Origin: Deltaproteobacteria bacterium
GTDB taxonomy: Bacteria > Desulfobacterota > Syntrophia > Syntrophales > UBA5619
Length of the DNA stretch: 39,967 nucleotides
Reading direction: 5' to 3'
Assembly: GCA_021372695.1 (NCBI GenBank)
Contig: JAJFTY010000117.1
Span: forward strand, 1-39,967
The translations under genes and the position numbers were made by a program. Positions 29,588 to 38,452 of the stretch are shown one piece after another. Every line of letters begins with the position of its first letter. The first letter of the stretch is position 1. A model generated the notes under the pieces. It ran no database searches. It was not told the origin of the DNA and saw only the letters and a list, made by a program, of their open reading frames with translations.

Positions 29588-31381
29588 ATGCGATCCGACG
29601 AAGAACGCGACAGAAGCATCGATCTGTTGATGGCGAAGGTCCAGGCCCTGGAGGAGGAGGTGGCCAGACTGAAGGGCCAGCCGTTCCAGGGGGAAGGCTC
29701 GCCGGCTCCGCTGCCTTTGGGTTCCGATGCCTCGCGGCCGGTCGTCCTCCCTGAGCCCGAACCGAGAATCCCATACGGCAAACCTGCCGATTCTTCGTTG
29801 GAGAGCGCGATCGGCACCCGCTGGATCGGGCGGATCGGGGTGATCGCCATCCTCTTCGGGGTCGCCTTTTTCCTCAAATACTCCTTCGACAACCGGCTGA
29901 TCGGCGAAACGGGCCGGGTCATGCTGGGCATCTTCTGGGGAGCTGCGTTCATCGGCATCGGCGAGTACCTCCAGAAAAAGCGGAACATGGGGCTGTACGG
30001 GCAGATGCTGAGCGGCGGCGGCCTGGCCGTGCTCTACCTGGCGCTCTACGCGGGCTTCGCCCTCTACCACCTGATTCCCGCCCCGCTCGCGTCGGTCGGG
30101 ATGCTGGCGGTCACGACCACGGGGATGACCCTCTCGATCCGGTATTCGACCTATTCGCTCGCAGCAATCGCCCTTCTCGGCGGTTTTCTGACGCCGGTCA
30201 TGCTTTCCACCGGACAGAACCAGCCGCTGACCCTGTTCGGCTATGTTCTGCTCCTGGACGCGGGCACCCTGCTCCTCCTGCGCTTCCGCCGCTGGCCAAC
30301 GCTCGCGGCCGCTTCCCTCTTCGGCACGGTCCTGCTCTACGCCGGCTGGCACTCGGAATTTTTCAGCGATCCGCAGCGGTGGCTCGCCTTCGGCGTCGTG
30401 GCGACGTTTTTTGTTTTCTACAACCTCTACATCCTGATCTCGCGCCTCTATTCTCAAGACACGGAATCGAAGGTCGACCAGTTCCTCATCTTCGGCTCCG
30501 CGGCCTTTCTCTTCCTGGCTTTTTTCGCTCAGCATCATGGGCACTCCGACTGGCCGGTCAAGGCCTGCGCACTGGCGCTGGCCGGCGTCGAGATCGGCAT
30601 GGCGGCGCTCGTCCGGGCTCGCGCATCCGATGCCCGGCTGACGATTGCGGCCTACGGGGCCGCTTCCGTGATCATGACCGTGATCGCCACCTTCGTCGCC
30701 CTGGAACAGCGCTGGCTCATGCCGGCCCTGGCGGCCGAAATGGCGGCTCTGGGCTGGATGGCCTCCCGGCTGGATCTCCCCGAGCTGCGGCACGGGGCCT
30801 ACCTGCTGGGGCTCGCAGTGCTTTTCCGGTTTGCCGATGACCTCATCCTCTACATCGAGCCGTTCGAGCGCTTCATCCCGGTCTTCAACAGCCGCTTCTG
30901 GGTCTGCACGGCAGCCATCGCGGGTTTTTACGTCCTGCTGTACTTTACGGCACGGAACCGGGATGAGCGGGGTCTCTACGGGGGACGGCATGCGCCGGCC
31001 ATCATCTTTGTCATCACGCAGGCCCTCTCCCTGATGTTGCTCTCCACCGAGGTCCACGATTTCTTCGGCTTCCGCTCCCCCGGGCGCAATCTGCGATGGG
31101 GATCCTCCCACTACGCCTATCAGCTCTCGCTTTCGGTCCTGTGGGCCCTCTACGCGTCGCTCCTGACCGGGGTGGGGATCTTCAAGCGCATTCGCGGCGC
31201 GCGCATCATGGGAATCCTGCTTTTGGGCGCAACGGTGCTGAAGGTCTTCTGGATGGACCTCTCGGCACTCCAGACCTTCTACCGCATCGTCTCGTTCATC
31301 GTGCTGGGGCTCCTGCTGCTGGTGGTCTCCTACGGCTATAACCGTTTCAAGCACATCATCTTCGGAGAAGACGAACCATGA
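29588..31381 (+). CDS. DUF2339 polytopic membrane protein
   Basis: 597 residues. A short coiled coil (about 5-30) and a Pro-rich linker precede about 14 membrane spans from residue 80 on. GTRWIGRIGVIAILFGVAFFL and YLALYAGFALYHL are typical of DUF2339. The role is unknown; the family is often next to DUF3999 proteins, as here. The ATG of the DUF3999 gene overlaps its stop by 4 bases (ATGA). Confidence 0.92.
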   Translation: MRSDEERDRSIDLLMAKVQALEEEVARLKGQPFQGEGSPAPLPLGSDASRPVVLPEPEPRIPYGKPADSSLESAIGTRWIGRIGVIAILFGVAFFLKYSFDNRLIGETGRVMLGIFWGAAFIGIGEYLQKKRNMGLYGQMLSGGGLAVLYLALYAGFALYHLIPAPLASVGMLAVTTTGMTLSIRYSTYSLAAIALLGGFLTPVMLSTGQNQPLTLFGYVLLLDAGTLLLLRFRRWPTLAAASLFGTVLLYAGWHSEFFSDPQRWLAFGVVATFFVFYNLYILISRLYSQDTESKVDQFLIFGSAAFLFLAFFAQHHGHSDWPVKACALALAGVEIGMAALVRARASDARLTIAAYGAASVIMTVIATFVALEQRWLMPALAAEMAALGWMASRLDLPELRHGAYLLGLAVLFRFADDLILYIEPFERFIPVFNSRFWVCTAAIAGFYVLLYFTARNRDERGLYGGRHAPAIIFVITQALSLMLLSTEVHDFFGFRSPGRNLRWGSSHYAYQLSLSVLWALYASLLTGVGIFKRIRGARIMGILLLGATVLKVFWMDLSALQTFYRIVSFIVLGLLLLVVSYGYNRFKHIIFGEDEP

Positions 31382-32646
31382 AACGATTCCTTTTCACGCT
31401 CGTGTGCTGCTCCGTTCTGCTGACCGGCGTGGCGGGCCATTGCACGGCATTCGACGAGCGGCTCTGGGAGAAGTATGCCGAAATCGAAATCCCTTCCGCC
31501 GGGGCGCAGGGCGGCCTGGCCGGGGTATACCTGGAGCCGCAGCACTTGGGCGATCTCGACGCGAAGCGACCCTTTGCCGATTTCCGGGTGGTGACCGACC
31601 TGAAGGAGGAACTCCCCTGCCAGATCGTTTCACGGAAACCGGAAAAGCGGGAGATCGCCCTGCCGCACCGTATGGAGAACCTCTCGCTGACCCCGAAGGG
31701 CGAAACGTGGCTGGAGCTCCGGATGGAACAGCCGGGGACCCGGTTCAACGCGGTGGAAATCGTCACACCCGACACCGATTTCTCCCGCCAGGTGCAGGTG
31801 TTCGGCAGTTCCGACGGCAAGGAGTGGAAGACGCTGCGTAAGGATGGCGTCATCTTCGATTTCCCGAAGAGAGAAAAGCTCCGGCGGACGCGCATCGCCT
31901 TCCCTCCGGCCGCTTTTCCGCGCATCGCGCTTAAAATCGAAAACATCGAGGCCCCGCCGCTGACGATAAGCGAAGTCAAGGTGTTGCAGGAGAGCGATTC
32001 ACTGGGACAGACCTATACGATTCCGGGAACGGCCGAGAAGCCGGAGCTCGACGCCTCCCGCAGGGAAAGCAGCATCGTTGTCCGGATGAACACGCGGTTC
32101 CCGCTGGATCGGCTGGTGATCGCCACGCCGGAACGGAACTTCCAGCGGACGGTGGAGGTGCAGGTCAGACGGGGGACGGACGAGTGGCAGCGGTGGGCCC
32201 AGGGAACCCTCTTCAGCTTCGATACGCCAACGATGCGCGAGACGCAGCTGGCCGTCGACATGCCGGAGATTGCGGCGAAAGAATTCCGGCTTGTATTCAA
32301 AAACCTCGACAGCCCGCCGCTTTCCGTCACCGGTGTGACCGGCCGGGGCTATCGGAGACTCCTCGTCTTCAAACAGCAGCCGGACCGGAAGCTTTATCTC
32401 TTCTGGGGGAATCCGCCCGCGGAGCCGCCCCGCTACGATCTCGCGGGGGCCGTCGCCAAGCAAAACCTGGACGGGCTGCCCCTGGCCCGGCTCGGACCGG
32501 TGCGCGCAAACGGGAATTTTGCCGGAAACGACGCCAGGCTCCCCTTCACCGAGCGTTACAAGCACGTGCTCTTTATTTTGGTGATACTCTGCATTGCCGG
32601 GCTTGTCTTTATCCAGTACCGCGTTTTCCGGCACATGAAGCGGTAG
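31378..32646 (+). CDS. DUF3999 exported protein with C-terminal membrane anchor
   Basis: 422 residues. Signal peptide 1-24 is followed by a large beta-rich periplasmic region with two discoidin-like passages (VEIVTPDTDFSRQVQVFGSSDGKEW near 120-145 and LVIATPERNFQRTVEVQVRRGTDEW near 240-265). One membrane span lies near the C-terminus (about 395-413) and a basic tail ends it. This matches DUF3999. It is translationally coupled to the DUF2339 gene and presumably forms a complex with it. Confidence 0.9.
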   Translation: MKRFLFTLVCCSVLLTGVAGHCTAFDERLWEKYAEIEIPSAGAQGGLAGVYLEPQHLGDLDAKRPFADFRVVTDLKEELPCQIVSRKPEKREIALPHRMENLSLTPKGETWLELRMEQPGTRFNAVEIVTPDTDFSRQVQVFGSSDGKEWKTLRKDGVIFDFPKREKLRRTRIAFPPAAFPRIALKIENIEAPPLTISEVKVLQESDSLGQTYTIPGTAEKPELDASRRESSIVVRMNTRFPLDRLVIATPERNFQRTVEVQVRRGTDEWQRWAQGTLFSFDTPTMRETQLAVDMPEIAAKEFRLVFKNLDSPPLSVTGVTGRGYRRLLVFKQQPDRKLYLFWGNPPAEPPRYDLAGAVAKQNLDGLPLARLGPVRANGNFAGNDARLPFTERYKHVLFILVILCIAGLVFIQYRVFRHMKR

Positions 32647-32810: not shown

Positions 32811-35800
32811 TTACGACGATCTCGTGCCGGTCTCCTCCCGGGGTTCGGGCACAGAAACACGGGTGGTCTTCTGCCAGATGGCGTCCACCATATCCCGGAA
32901 TACCAACTGCGGCACCTGCGTCGATTCCAACGGTATCCTGGCAATCGCCGTGTTGGGTAAGCCGCCGGTCGTGAAGCACTCGGGCAGGCCAGCCTTCATC
33001 AGATCCACCCCGCGCGGGCTGCGGATCCTCACGCCCAGGCACGGGCGCCTCTGAAAATCCCTGACGACTTGCCCGACGATGACGGGTTTTTCCGACCAAT
33101 CGCCGTGCTGCGTCAGATGCTCCGAGATCCAGTGGTAGAAATCCAGTTCGTTGTCTGCATTTCCGACGATGGGCGTCGGCGAAGCGACTTCGTCCCGGGT
33201 GAAAAAATGGCTGGCAAGGGCCCGGCCGCGATTTTCCAGGGTGATCCTCTCGACCAGGACCTGCACCCGCTCATTGAGAATACGGTAAGCCGCCATCAAC
33301 CGCTCCCAAACTTCCTGCGTCTCCAGCTGATCGGGACGGTCGACCCCCAACAACGCGTGAACGGCCGTCAGATAACCGTTTGCACGCGTGATCATCCGCA
33401 GGGCCCGGGCCGCCTCCACCGTGCGGTCCGGATTGAACCGGCTATAAAACAGCCGCCATTCGCTCGTGGTTTCGATGGCCGCGTCCAGACAGCAGCCGAC
33501 GGCAGCCTGCCAGGCGATCTGATTCAGCGCCTGTTCGTCGCGGATCAGCAGGGGAGCAATCTCCTCGAGGATCATCGCCGTGGAAAATCGGCCGGCGGGA
33601 AAGATCGATTTCAGCGTCTGCGGGGAGATATGCAAGATGCCCAGGACCGCGGGTTTCAGGAAGCCTCCTGCGTCAGGCTCCGGCGCGGCACCTGGATCCT
33701 GTTCAATGAGAGGCGCCGGCAGCTCATGATTGTTGACCAGCGTCACGCGGCATCGCTCCGCCACGCGGGCCACATAGGTCCGTCCCGGCTCGTCCACGGG
33801 AAATGCTCGGTCCAGCGCGAAGACCTGCCTCACCGGCCTGTCCGTTTCTTGAGTTTGCTCTATGAGATCCGGCACGATCGGCGAGCGGAAAGACTCGTTC
33901 AAATGGATGATCCTGTCTCCCGCCCCGGGATTCAGGCAGGAGATCATCCGGTGCATGATGGCGGCCGAGGCCGCGCCGTCTTCGTCATTGTCCGACATGA
34001 TCAGCACCCGCTCCGCCGTGCCGATGCTCCGGATCCGTTCCCCGAGCTCCGCGGACAGGCTTTCCAGGTGTTCGCGGTAGATGGCCAGGTGGTGCATCCG
34101 CTCCAGGGCCAGAATGTCGGAAGCGGTGGCCAGATCCAGATCGAATCGCCGCGTTACGGTCCAGACATCCTCGTAGCTGCGCTCGATCTGCCGGTACAGA
34201 TTCTCCTCCTCCAGCCGACGGTCCCACACCTGCCCCAGGCTGTTCTGGAGCATTTCCGAGAGGGAGACCAGCAATCCGCCGGAACTGGCCAGGTTATCCG
34301 GAATGACCTGAATGCCGCGCTCCCTGAGGATCTGTTTGGCATCTCCGGAGACGGCGGCGCCTGTCAATTCACAGATCACCTTGACGCGAAGTCCGCCGGC
34401 ATTGTCCGCACGGATGGACGCGGGAATCGCCGTAAGCACCAGGATGTCGGTGGGGACCTTCTTGAGCTCCGCCGGATCCGGATGATAGGCCAGGGCGCCC
34501 GGCTGCTTCGAAGAGAGCATGCGGATCACGGGGCTTGCCAGAAACGTATCGAACCGTTTGCCCGAGTTCTTGTGTGCGACGATCGCGGCCAGCTCCTGGC
34601 GGGAGAAGCCGTCCCGGCTGATGAGCGCCCCCCGGCTGTCGCTGACCGCCAGAATCGTAGCGCCTTTCTGCACCATCAGGCTGGCCATGTTCTTCCCGGC
34701 ATTGCCCAATCCTTCGATGGCGACGGTCATCCCTGCCAGGGGTTTTTCCCTGCCGGTCAGTTTTCTCAAAAGAATTTCGACCGCCATCATGGCCCCCTGC
34801 GCCATCGCTTCCGATCTCAGTTCAGAACCGCAAATCTCCGGGGGCTTGCGGGTGACCACGCCGAGTTTTGGCGTCGCACACGCGTAGGCCAGAGGCAGGG
34901 TAAAAAACGTGATCCTCTGAACGGTCGGCACGATCTCGCCAAGGGAGGTGATGGCTTGAATCGCCCGCTCCAGCACCTCAGCCCGGGCCCGCCGATAGGC
35001 ATCGGGCATGTGATCCGCCGCTCGGTCCCGGGCGTCGCACAGCAGACTGACCACACCCCAGAATTTTTCCTTGAGATCCTCCCGGCTGATGCCGGGCACC
35101 GGCATGTGCGCCGCCAGCGCCTCGCGCTCTTCCGGCGTGAACAGCAGGGAACGGTTGAACCAGCCGACCGGCAGCGCCTGTCCGGTCGGCATCAGGCCGG
35201 CCAGGGCCCTTTCCAGCATGATCCACTGGTTGTCCAGCAGCGTCGTCAGGTAAAGCGTTAGGACGCCGGGCTCCCCGCATTCATCCAGGCAGCGTGTGGA
35301 GAGCGCGACCGACAGGGCCCGCAAGATTGCCTCCCGGTGATGGTAAAGCTTGTCCTCCCTCTTCTGGCGCTCCCCGGTTCCGAACAGCAGATCCATCAAC
35401 GCCCGGTATTGGGCGGGCGACGGGGAGCCCTGGTCGGGCAACCCGGCAAGAAGCTCCCGAAGTCGGTCCCGGGACTCCGGCAGCATGATTCCGTGTTCCA
35501 ATTGCATTTTTGCGGCGGCCCGGGCCAGAGTGCACGCCGTTGGAGCGTAATTTTTCCGCTCCAGGATCTCCCTCAGCCGGGCCGTCATATCCTCATCCCC
35601 GATGATGATTTGGGGGTCGCTCACGAGCAGGGTCCGCAGATGCCCCTCCACCACATTGGCGGCCAGTTGCAGGCCGAGCCGGGCGGCTAATGTGGTATTG
35701 GTTTCGGCGGCATGGACGATCTTGTCGTAGGCGATCCGCTGGGCGCGCGTGAGCATTTCCGCGGCGCCGTTCATCATCCGCTCGATCAATTCCTTGTCTT

Positions 35801-36452
35801 CCCGGGCATGCTCCTCGCCCCCCTTGAGCAGGGATTTCAGCCGGTAACGCCCGCTGGCCGCGTCGAATTCCCGCGCGGCGCACAGCATCAGTCCTTCGCT
35901 GCCGGCAAAGGGCGCATCGGTGGCCTGGCTTTTCAGGCTCATGCTCAGGCTTTCACCGGTCATGAATTCCCGCATGGCCCGTTTCACCAATGCCTCCGCT
36001 TCGGCGGCATTGGTCCAGCGGCCTTTGCCCGGCGGCACGACCACCTCGACCACGCCGGGCTCCGATTCCTGGAAGCGGCTCTCGTGACCCAAAAGATCCA
36101 GCGGATAAACCAGTTTCAATGCACCCTTGCCCACCCGGCCCTGGATGAGATGATGCGTCTCCACCAGGATGAAGCTGGACTTGCTTCCGGCGCCGGGTTC
36201 GTCCACCTCACCCTCGAAAACGCTGTGCCGGCCGAAAATGCGGAACAGATCGTCCCGGGTCAGGCCCAAGTGACGGGCCGCCATCCGGATCCTCTCCGCA
36301 ATCAGTTTCAAGAGTTCATTGCCCGGTGTCAGGTCGCCCGTGATCGTGCGAAAACCCAGGCCGTCGTCCCAGCGGATTTCCGGCGGGACGCTGCCGACGC
36401 AGGCGACGGCTCCCCCTCCATCCACAAAAGGTTCTCCCTGCGGCTTTGTCAT
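32811..36452 (-). CDS. fusion of Glu/Leu dehydrogenase-like protein with DHH/DHHA1 phosphoesterase-like domain
   Basis: 1213 residues. Residues 85-165 resemble the dimerisation domain of glutamate dehydrogenase (GRVGKGALKLVYP near K109; VVVPPGKGRW near K143). About 390 mainly helical residues without known match follow (145-530). The Rossmann half then resumes: VVTRKPPEICGSELRSEAM (532-550), IEGLGNAGKNM (579-589) and DNLASSGGLLVSLSEMLQN (719-737). From 815 a DHH-type part begins with LIMSDNDEDGAASAAI (motif I); the DHH box is degenerate (VNNHE, 906-910). A DHHA1-like end has GVRIRSPRGVDL and TTGGLPN (1140-1166). The catalytic Asp region of glutamate dehydrogenase (PAGD-type) is not seen, so dehydrogenase activity is uncertain. 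The gene is single, with its own predicted promoter. Confidence 0.8.
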   Translation of the reverse strand: MTKPQGEPFVDGGGAVACVGSVPPEIRWDDGLGFRTITGDLTPGNELLKLIAERIRMAARHLGLTRDDLFRIFGRHSVFEGEVDEPGAGSKSSFILVETHHLIQGRVGKGALKLVYPLDLLGHESRFQESEPGVVEVVVPPGKGRWTNAAEAEALVKRAMREFMTGESLSMSLKSQATDAPFAGSEGLMLCAAREFDAASGRYRLKSLLKGGEEHAREDKELIERMMNGAAEMLTRAQRIAYDKIVHAAETNTTLAARLGLQLAANVVEGHLRTLLVSDPQIIIGDEDMTARLREILERKNYAPTACTLARAAAKMQLEHGIMLPESRDRLRELLAGLPDQGSPSPAQYRALMDLLFGTGERQKREDKLYHHREAILRALSVALSTRCLDECGEPGVLTLYLTTLLDNQWIMLERALAGLMPTGQALPVGWFNRSLLFTPEEREALAAHMPVPGISREDLKEKFWGVVSLLCDARDRAADHMPDAYRRARAEVLERAIQAITSLGEIVPTVQRITFFTLPLAYACATPKLGVVTRKPPEICGSELRSEAMAQGAMMAVEILLRKLTGREKPLAGMTVAIEGLGNAGKNMASLMVQKGATILAVSDSRGALISRDGFSRQELAAIVAHKNSGKRFDTFLASPVIRMLSSKQPGALAYHPDPAELKKVPTDILVLTAIPASIRADNAGGLRVKVICELTGAAVSGDAKQILRERGIQVIPDNLASSGGLLVSLSEMLQNSLGQVWDRRLEEENLYRQIERSYEDVWTVTRRFDLDLATASDILALERMHHLAIYREHLESLSAELGERIRSIGTAERVLIMSDNDEDGAASAAIMHRMISCLNPGAGDRIIHLNESFRSPIVPDLIEQTQETDRPVRQVFALDRAFPVDEPGRTYVARVAERCRVTLVNNHELPAPLIEQDPGAAPEPDAGGFLKPAVLGILHISPQTLKSIFPAGRFSTAMILEEIAPLLIRDEQALNQIAWQAAVGCCLDAAIETTSEWRLFYSRFNPDRTVEAARALRMITRANGYLTAVHALLGVDRPDQLETQEVWERLMAAYRILNERVQVLVERITLENRGRALASHFFTRDEVASPTPIVGNADNELDFYHWISEHLTQHGDWSEKPVIVGQVVRDFQRRPCLGVRIRSPRGVDLMKAGLPECFTTGGLPNTAIARIPLESTQVPQLVFRDMVDAIWQKTTRVSVPEPREETGTRSS

Positions 36453-36672: not shown

Positions 36673-37348
36673 CTACCGGGCCGCTTCGAGCCTGGCGGTC
36701 AGGATCTGACGGACCCGCTTCGGGTTGGCCTTGCCGCCAGACGTCTGCATGACCCGGCCGATGAGGAAGCCCGCCGCCTTGGCGGCGCCGCTGCGGTAAT
36801 CCTGGACGGCCGCGGGATTCGCCGCCAGGACCTGCTCGACAATCTCCGCCAGTTCACCGCCGTCGGAAACCTGGCGAAACCCCTCTTCGGCGACGATCGC
36901 CTCCGGATCCCGGTCGGAGTCAAAGAGGCGGCCCAGAACCGCGTGGGCCGCGTTGGCGTTGATCTCCTCCCGCTCCAGCAGTGCAAGCAGGGCCGCCAGC
37001 CTTCCGGGCGTGACGGATGTTCGGGCCGGGGATTGGCCACGCTCCCTGAGCGCGGGCAGAAGCTGCGTCGAAAGCCAGTGGGCCGCCGTCCGGGGGGAGA
37101 TCTTCAGCTCCACGAGGGCCTCGAAGTACTCCGCCTGGTCCCGCTCATGAAGAGGGCCTCGTCGGCGGTCAGGCCATACTCCGCCTTGAAGCGCTCCGCC
37201 TTCTTCGCCGGCATCTCGGGAAGCCGGGCGAGGAGCTCCTCTTTCCAGACGTCGCTCACGATGATCGGCGGCACCGTCGGACCGGGTACGCAGGGGCCCT
37301 CGAACTTGCCCCGCATCGGAAGGGTGAGGCCCTTCTCCTCGTTCTGCA
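36673..37348 (-). pseudogene. gatB: 3' remnant of gatB (Asp/Glu-tRNA amidotransferase subunit B), frameshifted
   Basis: Only the C-terminal third is present. EEKGLTLPMRGK and VPPIIVSDVWKEELLARLPE match the middle of GatB, but the intervening invariant HDYRYFP region is missing or scrambled. At about 37142 the frame breaks after EYGLTADEALFM; adding one base restores RDQAEYFEALVELK and the rest to the tail domain (AVQDYRSGAAKAAGFLIGRVMQ) and the TAG at 36673. GatB transfers ammonia to misacylated Asp-tRNAAsn/Glu-tRNAGln; this fragment lacks the kinase core and cannot do so. It is joined directly to the aspS fragment. Confidence 0.8.
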
Positions 37349-38452
37349 GGATGTTCTTGCTCAGCCGCTCCGACTGGCCCTTGACGGTGATTCCCTTGAT
37401 GCACCCCCCCGTTGAAGGATCTGCCTGAAGATGCCGTAGGAGGTGGCCCGGAAGAGATCCGTCGCCTCGACGAAGCGCAGGCCGAAACGCGTGTCCGGCC
37501 GGTCGGAGCCCATCGCGTCCATGGCCTCGTCGTAGCGCATCCGGGGGAAGGCGCGGCGGAGTGTGATGCCGCCGACGGCAAAGATCCGGACGAGCAGCTC
37601 CTCGATCAGATCGTAGATGAACTCCTCGTCGATGAAGGAGGCCTCCAGGTCGAGCTGGGTGAACTCGGGCTGGCGGTTGGGGCGCAGGTCCTCGTCGCGG
37701 AAACAGCGGGCGATCTGGAAATAGCGCTCACAGCCGCCGACCATGAGAAGCTGCTTGAAAAGCTGGGGCGACTGGGGCAGGGCATAGAAATCTCCGGGGT
37801 GGAGCCGGCTCGGGACGAGGTAGTCCCGGGCGCCCTCGGGCGTGCTCTTGGTGAGCATCGGGGTCTCCACCTCGATGAAGCCCCGCTCGTCGAGAAAATC
37901 GCGGACTGTCTTGACGATCCGGTGGCGTTTGACGAGATGGTCCAGCATCGTGGGGCGGCGGAGGTCGAGGTAGCGGTACTGGAGCCGCAACTCCTCGTTG
38001 ACCGACTCGCTGCCGGAGGCCTGGGCGCCGGCGACCATCGCCTTTTCGGAAACGGGAAAGGGGAGGACCTCGGAGCGGCTCAGGATCGTGAGCGCCGTCA
38101 CCAGGACCTCGACCCGGCCCGTCTCCAAGATGGGGTTCTCCGTCCCGGCTTCCCGCTCCCGGATAGAGCCGCAGATAGAGATGCAGTCCTCGCTGCGCAG
38201 CGAGGCCGCCTCCCGGCAGCAGGCCGGATCGGCCGTCTCCGGGCTGAAGACCGCCTGCACGATGCCGCTGCGGTCACGCAGGTGGATGAAAAGCACTTCC
38301 CCGTGGTCCCGCAGGGCGTCCACCCAGCCGGCCAGCCGCACCTCCCGGCCGACCCCTCCAAGGAGCCCGCTCTGAAAAGACCGTCTTCCGCCCCGCCTGT
38401 CCGGACACGGTGGACCGGGATCGCTAGAGAAAAAAGAACCCCAACCCGACAA
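37349..38452 (-). pseudogene. aspS: 5' part of aspS (aspartyl-tRNA synthetase), truncated and frameshifted
   Basis: The N-terminal OB domain (VRLAGWVDALRDHGEVLFIHLRDRSGIVQAVF) and class II motifs are clear: RYLDLRR, FLDERGFIEVETP and FRDEDLRPNRQPEFTQLDLE. After GIFRQILQRGG the frame breaks in a run of seven G (minus strand, about 37405-37411). One extra G would restore GCIKGITVKGQSERLSKN before the switch to gatB sequence near 37349. The last third, with motif 3 and the C-terminal extension, is absent, so no active synthetase is possible. The open frame begins at TTG 38450-38452, overlapping the antiporter gene; the normal start context is not evident. Confidence 0.85.

Follow-up and report, generated by a model that had tools for sequence, protein, structure and literature searches.

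The window analysed here is the 39,967-nucleotide contig JAJFTY010000117.1 of a Deltaproteobacteria bacterium, and it carries on the reverse strand a gene (32811..36452) for a single chain of 1213 residues. In this chain a glutamate dehydrogenase (GDH)-like part, interrupted by a helical insert, is followed by a RecJ-like DHH-DHHA1 part. Both catalytic centres carry fixed substitutions, all parts of the gene are under purifying selection, and GDH genes adjoin the family gene in some genomes. The combination of the two folds, the insert within domain I and the paired fixed substitutions are the apparently new aspects; each fold is already known. A literature search for GDH combined with DHH, RecJ or DHHA1, limited to one library and judged from the result lists, found no such paper. 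The substitutions are kept by the relatives, so the fused protein is probably a sensor or regulator, and not either of the known enzymes. We tentatively propose that the chimera is a regulator through which GDH or nitrogen metabolism responds to glutamate/NAD status and to a nucleotide or strand signal, a proposal that we hold at somewhat less than an even chance. Put as a statement on the family, a fused pair of repurposed enzymes would couple glutamate/NAD to a nucleotide or single-strand signal through a GDH pocket (with both Glu residues and the insert adjoining in sequence) and a RecJ/Cdc45-like Asn-Asn-His (NNH) pocket; this statement may be almost as readily right as wrong.

In the Pfam scan of the window protein, only the NAD-binding half of GDH was recognised (PF00208, residues 542–788, E 3.1e-42), and PF02812 gave no match. 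The NCBIfam models of GDH matched over the NAD domain only, far below their cut-offs, and the RecJ match was weak (E 0.018). A match of the whole length to one large-dehydrogenase family, the outcome that would have overturned the initial annotation, was not found by NCBIfam, in a search in which the large-GDH models (L-GDH115/180) were not directly compared. The GDH-like half has the two-domain fold of GDH with the NAD(P) motif, and domain I and the NAD domain are both complete. The first part of domain I covers residues 24–252 (35697..36383, approximate boundaries; this and all following features of the gene are on the reverse strand). After the insert, the chain returns to domain I and a GVVTRKP link at residues 509–545 (34818..34928). 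The NAD-binding Rossmann domain and the C-terminal GDH helices follow at residues 546–794 (34071..34817), as assigned from PF00208 and hhalign, and the NAD domain is matched to GDH by hhalign with E 3.7e-34. On its own, domain I is matched to GDH weakly by local hhalign (Prob 3%), and the N-terminal GDH domain profile found no match among the PDB sequences. Thus, the claim for domain I rests on the structure.

Conservation was counted over 99 sequences, namely the window protein and those 98 of its 112 homologues that have at least 1100 residues. According to the hhalign and BLASTP pairing, the GDH sequence MTWK...GGKGG corresponds to MSLK...GSEG in the family. Lys174 (35931..35933), the Lys of the MTWK motif, is kept in 99/99, and Glu186 (35895..35897) stands at the position of the catalytic Lys in 99/99. 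In the profile alignment without the insert columns, the GDH sequence VPAPD (PAPD) corresponds to VHAAE (HAAE), and Glu250 (35703..35705, 99/99) stands at the position of the catalytic Asp; this pairing is partly forced and less firm than that of Glu186, because the insert columns were removed by hand and the boundary was chosen. Neither the catalytic Lys of GGxKGG nor the catalytic Asp of PAxD is therefore present, Glu occupying both positions in every sequence, and the degenerate catalytic Asp suspected in the initial annotation is borne out with the reservation on the pairing. Ser730, Asp605 and the GLGNAG positions G581, G583, N584 and G586 are also invariant (99/99 each). The roles given here to the GDH residues K113, K125, D165 and S380, including those of the catalytic Lys and the catalytic Asp, are general background, on which a paper search gave nothing useful. 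The GKGALK motif (Lys109, 99/99) resembles the GDH motif KGGxRF by eye. We make no claim that Lys109 is the equivalent of GDH K89, since BLASTP and the global profile alignment put the GDH motif on a different, non-conserved stretch. The GDH half looks able to bind a dinucleotide and part of the substrate, without the catalytic residues of GDH. The family shares with GDH of the ELFV family (PF02812/PF00208) the complete folds of domain I and the NAD domain, the NAD motif and the positions of Lys174 and Ser730, but it differs in the Glu residues at the catalytic Lys and (less firmly mapped) Asp positions, in an insert of about 256 residues and in the C-terminal DHH-DHHA1 part.

In the predicted model, the helical insert of about 256 residues (about residues 253–508, 34929..35696) splits GDH domain I. 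Its start is nearly invariant: E269, G270, H271, R273 and R294 are each found in 99/99, and the segment 261–300 ranks second in conservation among the 14 segments measured, with a mean majority of 0.816. No relation of the insert was detected in Pfam (best Rnk_N, E 1.3) or by sequence profile in the PDB (best E 0.76). In fold searches with the N-terminal part, which included the insert and did not use it alone, the result rows were filled by GDH, and no match reached E 0.001 in the viral structure library. These features would also suit an active enzyme, in which Glu186 and Glu250 together with E269, H271, R273 and R294 of the insert might form a new site in the GDH cleft, and the RecJ-like part might deliver or sense a nucleotide substrate. 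The invariance of all six residues, the rank of the insert start and the low ratio of nonsynonymous to synonymous substitution rates (dN/dS) all favour a new chemistry. However, such pocket conservation is also typical of ligand-binding regulators, and the insert residues adjoin the cleft in sequence, their closeness in space being an assumption. We consider this explanation unlikely, yet the strongest of the alternatives.

The C-terminal part shows the DHH plus DHHA1 fold according to the predicted model and the fold matches. The DHH domain with a helical link covers about residues 795–1088 (33189..34070), as judged from the model (predicted local distance difference test score 91) and the RecJ matches, and the DHHA1 domain covers about residues 1089–1195 (32868..33188), as judged from the model and the fold match over model residues 2–412. 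The best fold matches of the C-terminal model include RecJ-Cdc45 and Cdc45. The RecJ profile matches over motifs I–III with E 1.3e-5. The C-terminal profile found RecJ only weakly among the PDB sequences (E 0.26), the DHHA1-only profile did not find the DHHA1 of RecJ, and aligning the C-terminal part with RecJ by global profile alignment was unsuccessful. Therefore, the assignment of DHHA1 rests on the structure. With the profile match for DHH and the structure for DHHA1, the relation read in the initial annotation is upheld. Profiles of NrnA-type and other DHH proteins of the same genomes gave poor matches to the C-terminal part.

According to the profile alignment, motif I (DNDEDG, 33975..33992) is kept, with Asp821, Asp823, Asp825 and Gly826 each in 99/99, and so is Asp881 of motif II (33810..33812, 99/99). 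In motif III (33726..33734) Asp-His-His is replaced by Asn-Asn-His. NNH is found in 86 of the 99 sequences, and the others have NNN (7), NHH (3), TNH (1), NNQ (1) and DDH (1). The intact triad occurs in 0/99, in agreement with the degenerate DHH box noted at first. Asn stands at the position of the metal-ligand His in 95/99 and at that of the Asp that bonds the general base in 97/99. Asp990 (33483..33485; Asp 94/99, Glu 5/99) is likely motif IV, as identified by position and not by alignment. In DHHA1, RIRS and GGLPNTA replace the SxRS and GGH motifs of RecJ, as paired by eye; the Leu of GGL is found in 96/99. The RecJ half seems capable of metal binding but lacks an intact triad. The chain ends about 18 residues past DHHA1 and thus leaves no room for the OB-fold and C-terminal domains that come after DHHA1 in Deinococcus RecJ, as described in PMC4846377. 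The family differs from RecJ and RecJ-Cdc45 in NNH for DHH, in GGL for GGH and in the fusion to GDH.

Close to the idea of the initial annotation, the DHH unit might still be an active phosphodiesterase or nuclease that is switched by a GDH-derived sensor. According to PMC4846377, alanine at the metal ligands of Deinococcus RecJ causes almost complete inactivation, and alanine at His160 or Asp158 inactivates the enzyme. The family has Asn for the metal-ligand His and for the base-bonding Asp in nearly all sequences, and Leu in GGL (by the pairing by eye), and these replacements make an active DHH unit improbable, in spite of the metal ligands that are kept.

The family was collected by a search of about 5.8 billion proteins, which gave 113 sequences at E 1e-3 or better, including the copy of the window; this first search scored 7993 candidates, and as the homology searches were generally limited to the roughly 8000 sequences sharing most words, distant relatives may be missed. 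A profile search of proteins found no member beyond the first search. The 98 homologues of at least 1100 residues align over the whole length. The initial description, in one frame of 1213 codons, of GDH-like motifs split by a helical insert and followed by a DHH/DHHA1-like part is confirmed. The lowest identity in the aligned set is 43%. Alignment A1 contained the window and 55 of the 112 homologues, and the structure alignments contained 72 of the 112 and the window piece. Most homologues have no source name. The named ones are mostly called 'glutamate dehydrogenase/leucine dehydrogenase', 'Glu/Leu/Phe/Val dehydrogenase' or 'hypothetical protein', and the first two names are probably misleading for the family. 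A search for stand-alone DHH relatives with the C-terminal profile gave 21 matches, all with 44–87% identity to the window in the region aligned; these look like family members or fragments. There are matches in 283 plasmid records, none over 80% of the query; among the five listed, coverage is 21–27%, mainly of the GDH NAD region. The PADLOC defence scan gave nothing convincing (BrxA, E 0.032).

Scanning the species genomes revealed 14 loci. All lie in metagenome-assembled genomes (MAGs) that the submitters titled Syntrophales, Syntrophobacterales, Syntrophus, Deltaproteobacteria or Verrucomicrobia/Verrucomicrobiota. In samples taken around known carriers, 5/155 genomes of one class had the gene, as did 8/293 of one order, 1/387 of a phylum sample, 1/17 of another class and, in two families, 1/5 and 4/14. 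The samples overlap, each being centred on a genome already recognised as a carrier, and the 14 different carriers among them are the same as the 14 loci; in the large samples up to two to four candidates were scored per genome, and the counts give no frequency estimate for bacteria. A tree of 12 of the 14 loci (L013 and L014, partial or broken, were excluded), the window and 20 of the 112 proteins intermixes phyla and places the window among Syntrophales and Deltaproteobacteria MAGs; horizontal transfer of the gene is possible. A structural, Cdc45-like part of DNA replication or repair that carries a GDH-derived scaffold would agree with the top fold matches, and inactivated RecJ homologues of archaea are regarded as structural components of replication (PMC3307487). 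But the family is rare and patchy in the sampled groups, no replication or repair gene was seen adjoining among the selected neighbours scanned, and the conserved GDH pocket would be left unexplained. We regard such a role as quite improbable.

Comparison of the window gene with those of L001, L002 and L007 gave dN/dS of 0.13–0.15 for the whole gene and 0.07–0.17 for each of the four modules. Therefore, all parts are under purifying selection. One relative (L014:8001-11473) is broken into several frames, being a recent pseudogene or carrying sequencing errors. This split relative and another broken-looking region of the window (AspS/GatB) might suggest two genes joined by a sequencing error or a decaying pseudogene, but the 98 other sequences aligning over the whole length and the dN/dS of 0.07–0.17 contradict this, and an artefact is hardly credible.

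A GDH gene lies within 3.5 kb of the family gene in 4 of the 14 relative loci (L001, L007, L009 and L010). In L001 and L010 a large GDH is directly upstream; the copy in L001 is cut at the contig end, and in L010 a candidate ATG of the family gene lies 5 nt past the GDH stop. In L007 the GDH is one gene away, and in L009 the adjoining GDH is divergent. The usual Lys and Asp motifs are present in the GDHs of L010, L007 and L009. If placement were uniform, 0.023 cases of GDH within 4 kb would be expected over 12 genomes with 13 GDHs (L003 and L013 excluded), and P is about 1e-8 for four cases and 2e-6 for three.

The upstream GDHs (L001:1-1188 and L010:1-2511) are 93% identical, whereas the adjoining family proteins are 52% identical. 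One copy of the family gene may thus have been replaced in place at L001 or L010. The GDH and the family gene of L007 are separated by the gene for a protein of 1071 residues (L007:4625-7840), which has PPDK_N and nucleotidyltransferase domains. Its N-terminus is resembled by the N-terminal region of a histidine kinase in L012, which with a sigma-54 response regulator is divergently upstream of the family gene (L012:5290-7795). The scanned neighbours, which are selected ones, vary between loci; cytochrome b561 and Fe-S proteins are found in L002, and a beta-lactamase-fold protein and aconitase in L013. In the window, the genes for a DUF2339 membrane protein and then a DUF3999 protein (29588-32646, forward strand) run convergently towards the 3' end of the family gene. 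On the reverse strand (36673-38452), an AspS frame, in which tRNA-synt_2 is matched only at profile positions 1–187 of 308, continues into a frame for the C-terminal part of GatB, and the reading frame apparently changes between the two; this region appears to result from a deletion, a misassembly or gene decay.

The initial annotation had suggested a nucleotide- or NAD-sensing enzyme or regulator that links amino-acid metabolism to nucleotide signalling. This interpretation is supported in part: the altered and fixed catalytic sites and the GDH next door in 4/14 loci agree with a sensor or regulator, and the link between metabolism and signalling is conjectural. We infer the ligands, the inactivity, the partner and the regulation of the fused protein as follows. 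Both catalytic centres would have been repurposed, and not lost through decay. The GDH half, which has kept its NAD site and some of its substrate site, would most likely bind glutamate, 2-oxoglutarate or NAD(H) and would not carry out the usual oxidative deamination; the invariant insert residues perhaps contribute to this binding. The DHH-DHHA1 half, retaining most metal ligands, would most likely bind a nucleotide or a single strand and hydrolyse it little or not at all. The two halves might jointly regulate GDH or nitrogen metabolism, possibly via assembly with a true GDH.

We favour a regulator from the state of the two halves and because the same logic has a precedent in Thermus with separate proteins. 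According to PMC9570180, a catalytically inactive GdhA subunit of Thermus thermophilus GDH serves leucine activation, and AMP activates through TTC1249, the proposed AMP-sensory subunit; the title of reference 20 in that paper describes TTC1249 as an inactive APRT homologue. The GdhA/GdhB/TTC1249 system works alike in that an active GDH is controlled by a catalytically inactive GDH subunit and by a partner that senses a nucleotide, but there the proteins are separate and this partner does not belong to the DHH proteins. L-GDH180 likewise has a GDH core within a long polypeptide, whose additional parts have been proposed to act as sensors (PMC8175468), but in the family the insert sits inside domain I and a RecJ-like unit follows. 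Several points weigh against a regulator of GDH. The invariant pocket residues equally suit an active enzyme with new chemistry. No GDH is found in the available flanks of 10/14 relative loci or in the window, several of the contigs being short, and a PF02812 match is absent altogether in 2 of 12 genomes, although the MAGs are incomplete. The 93% identity of the L001 and L010 GDHs means that these two cases are possibly one event and not independent. In addition, the adjacency was noticed before it was counted, on short MAG contigs.

If the proposal is true, central nitrogen metabolism and a RecJ/Cdc45-type module binding a nucleotide or strand would be joined in one chain, and two repurposed catalytic sites would be fixed over several bacterial groups. 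The family would then be a natural test case for metabolic enzymes becoming regulators and, as in Thermus, for the nucleotide control of GDH.
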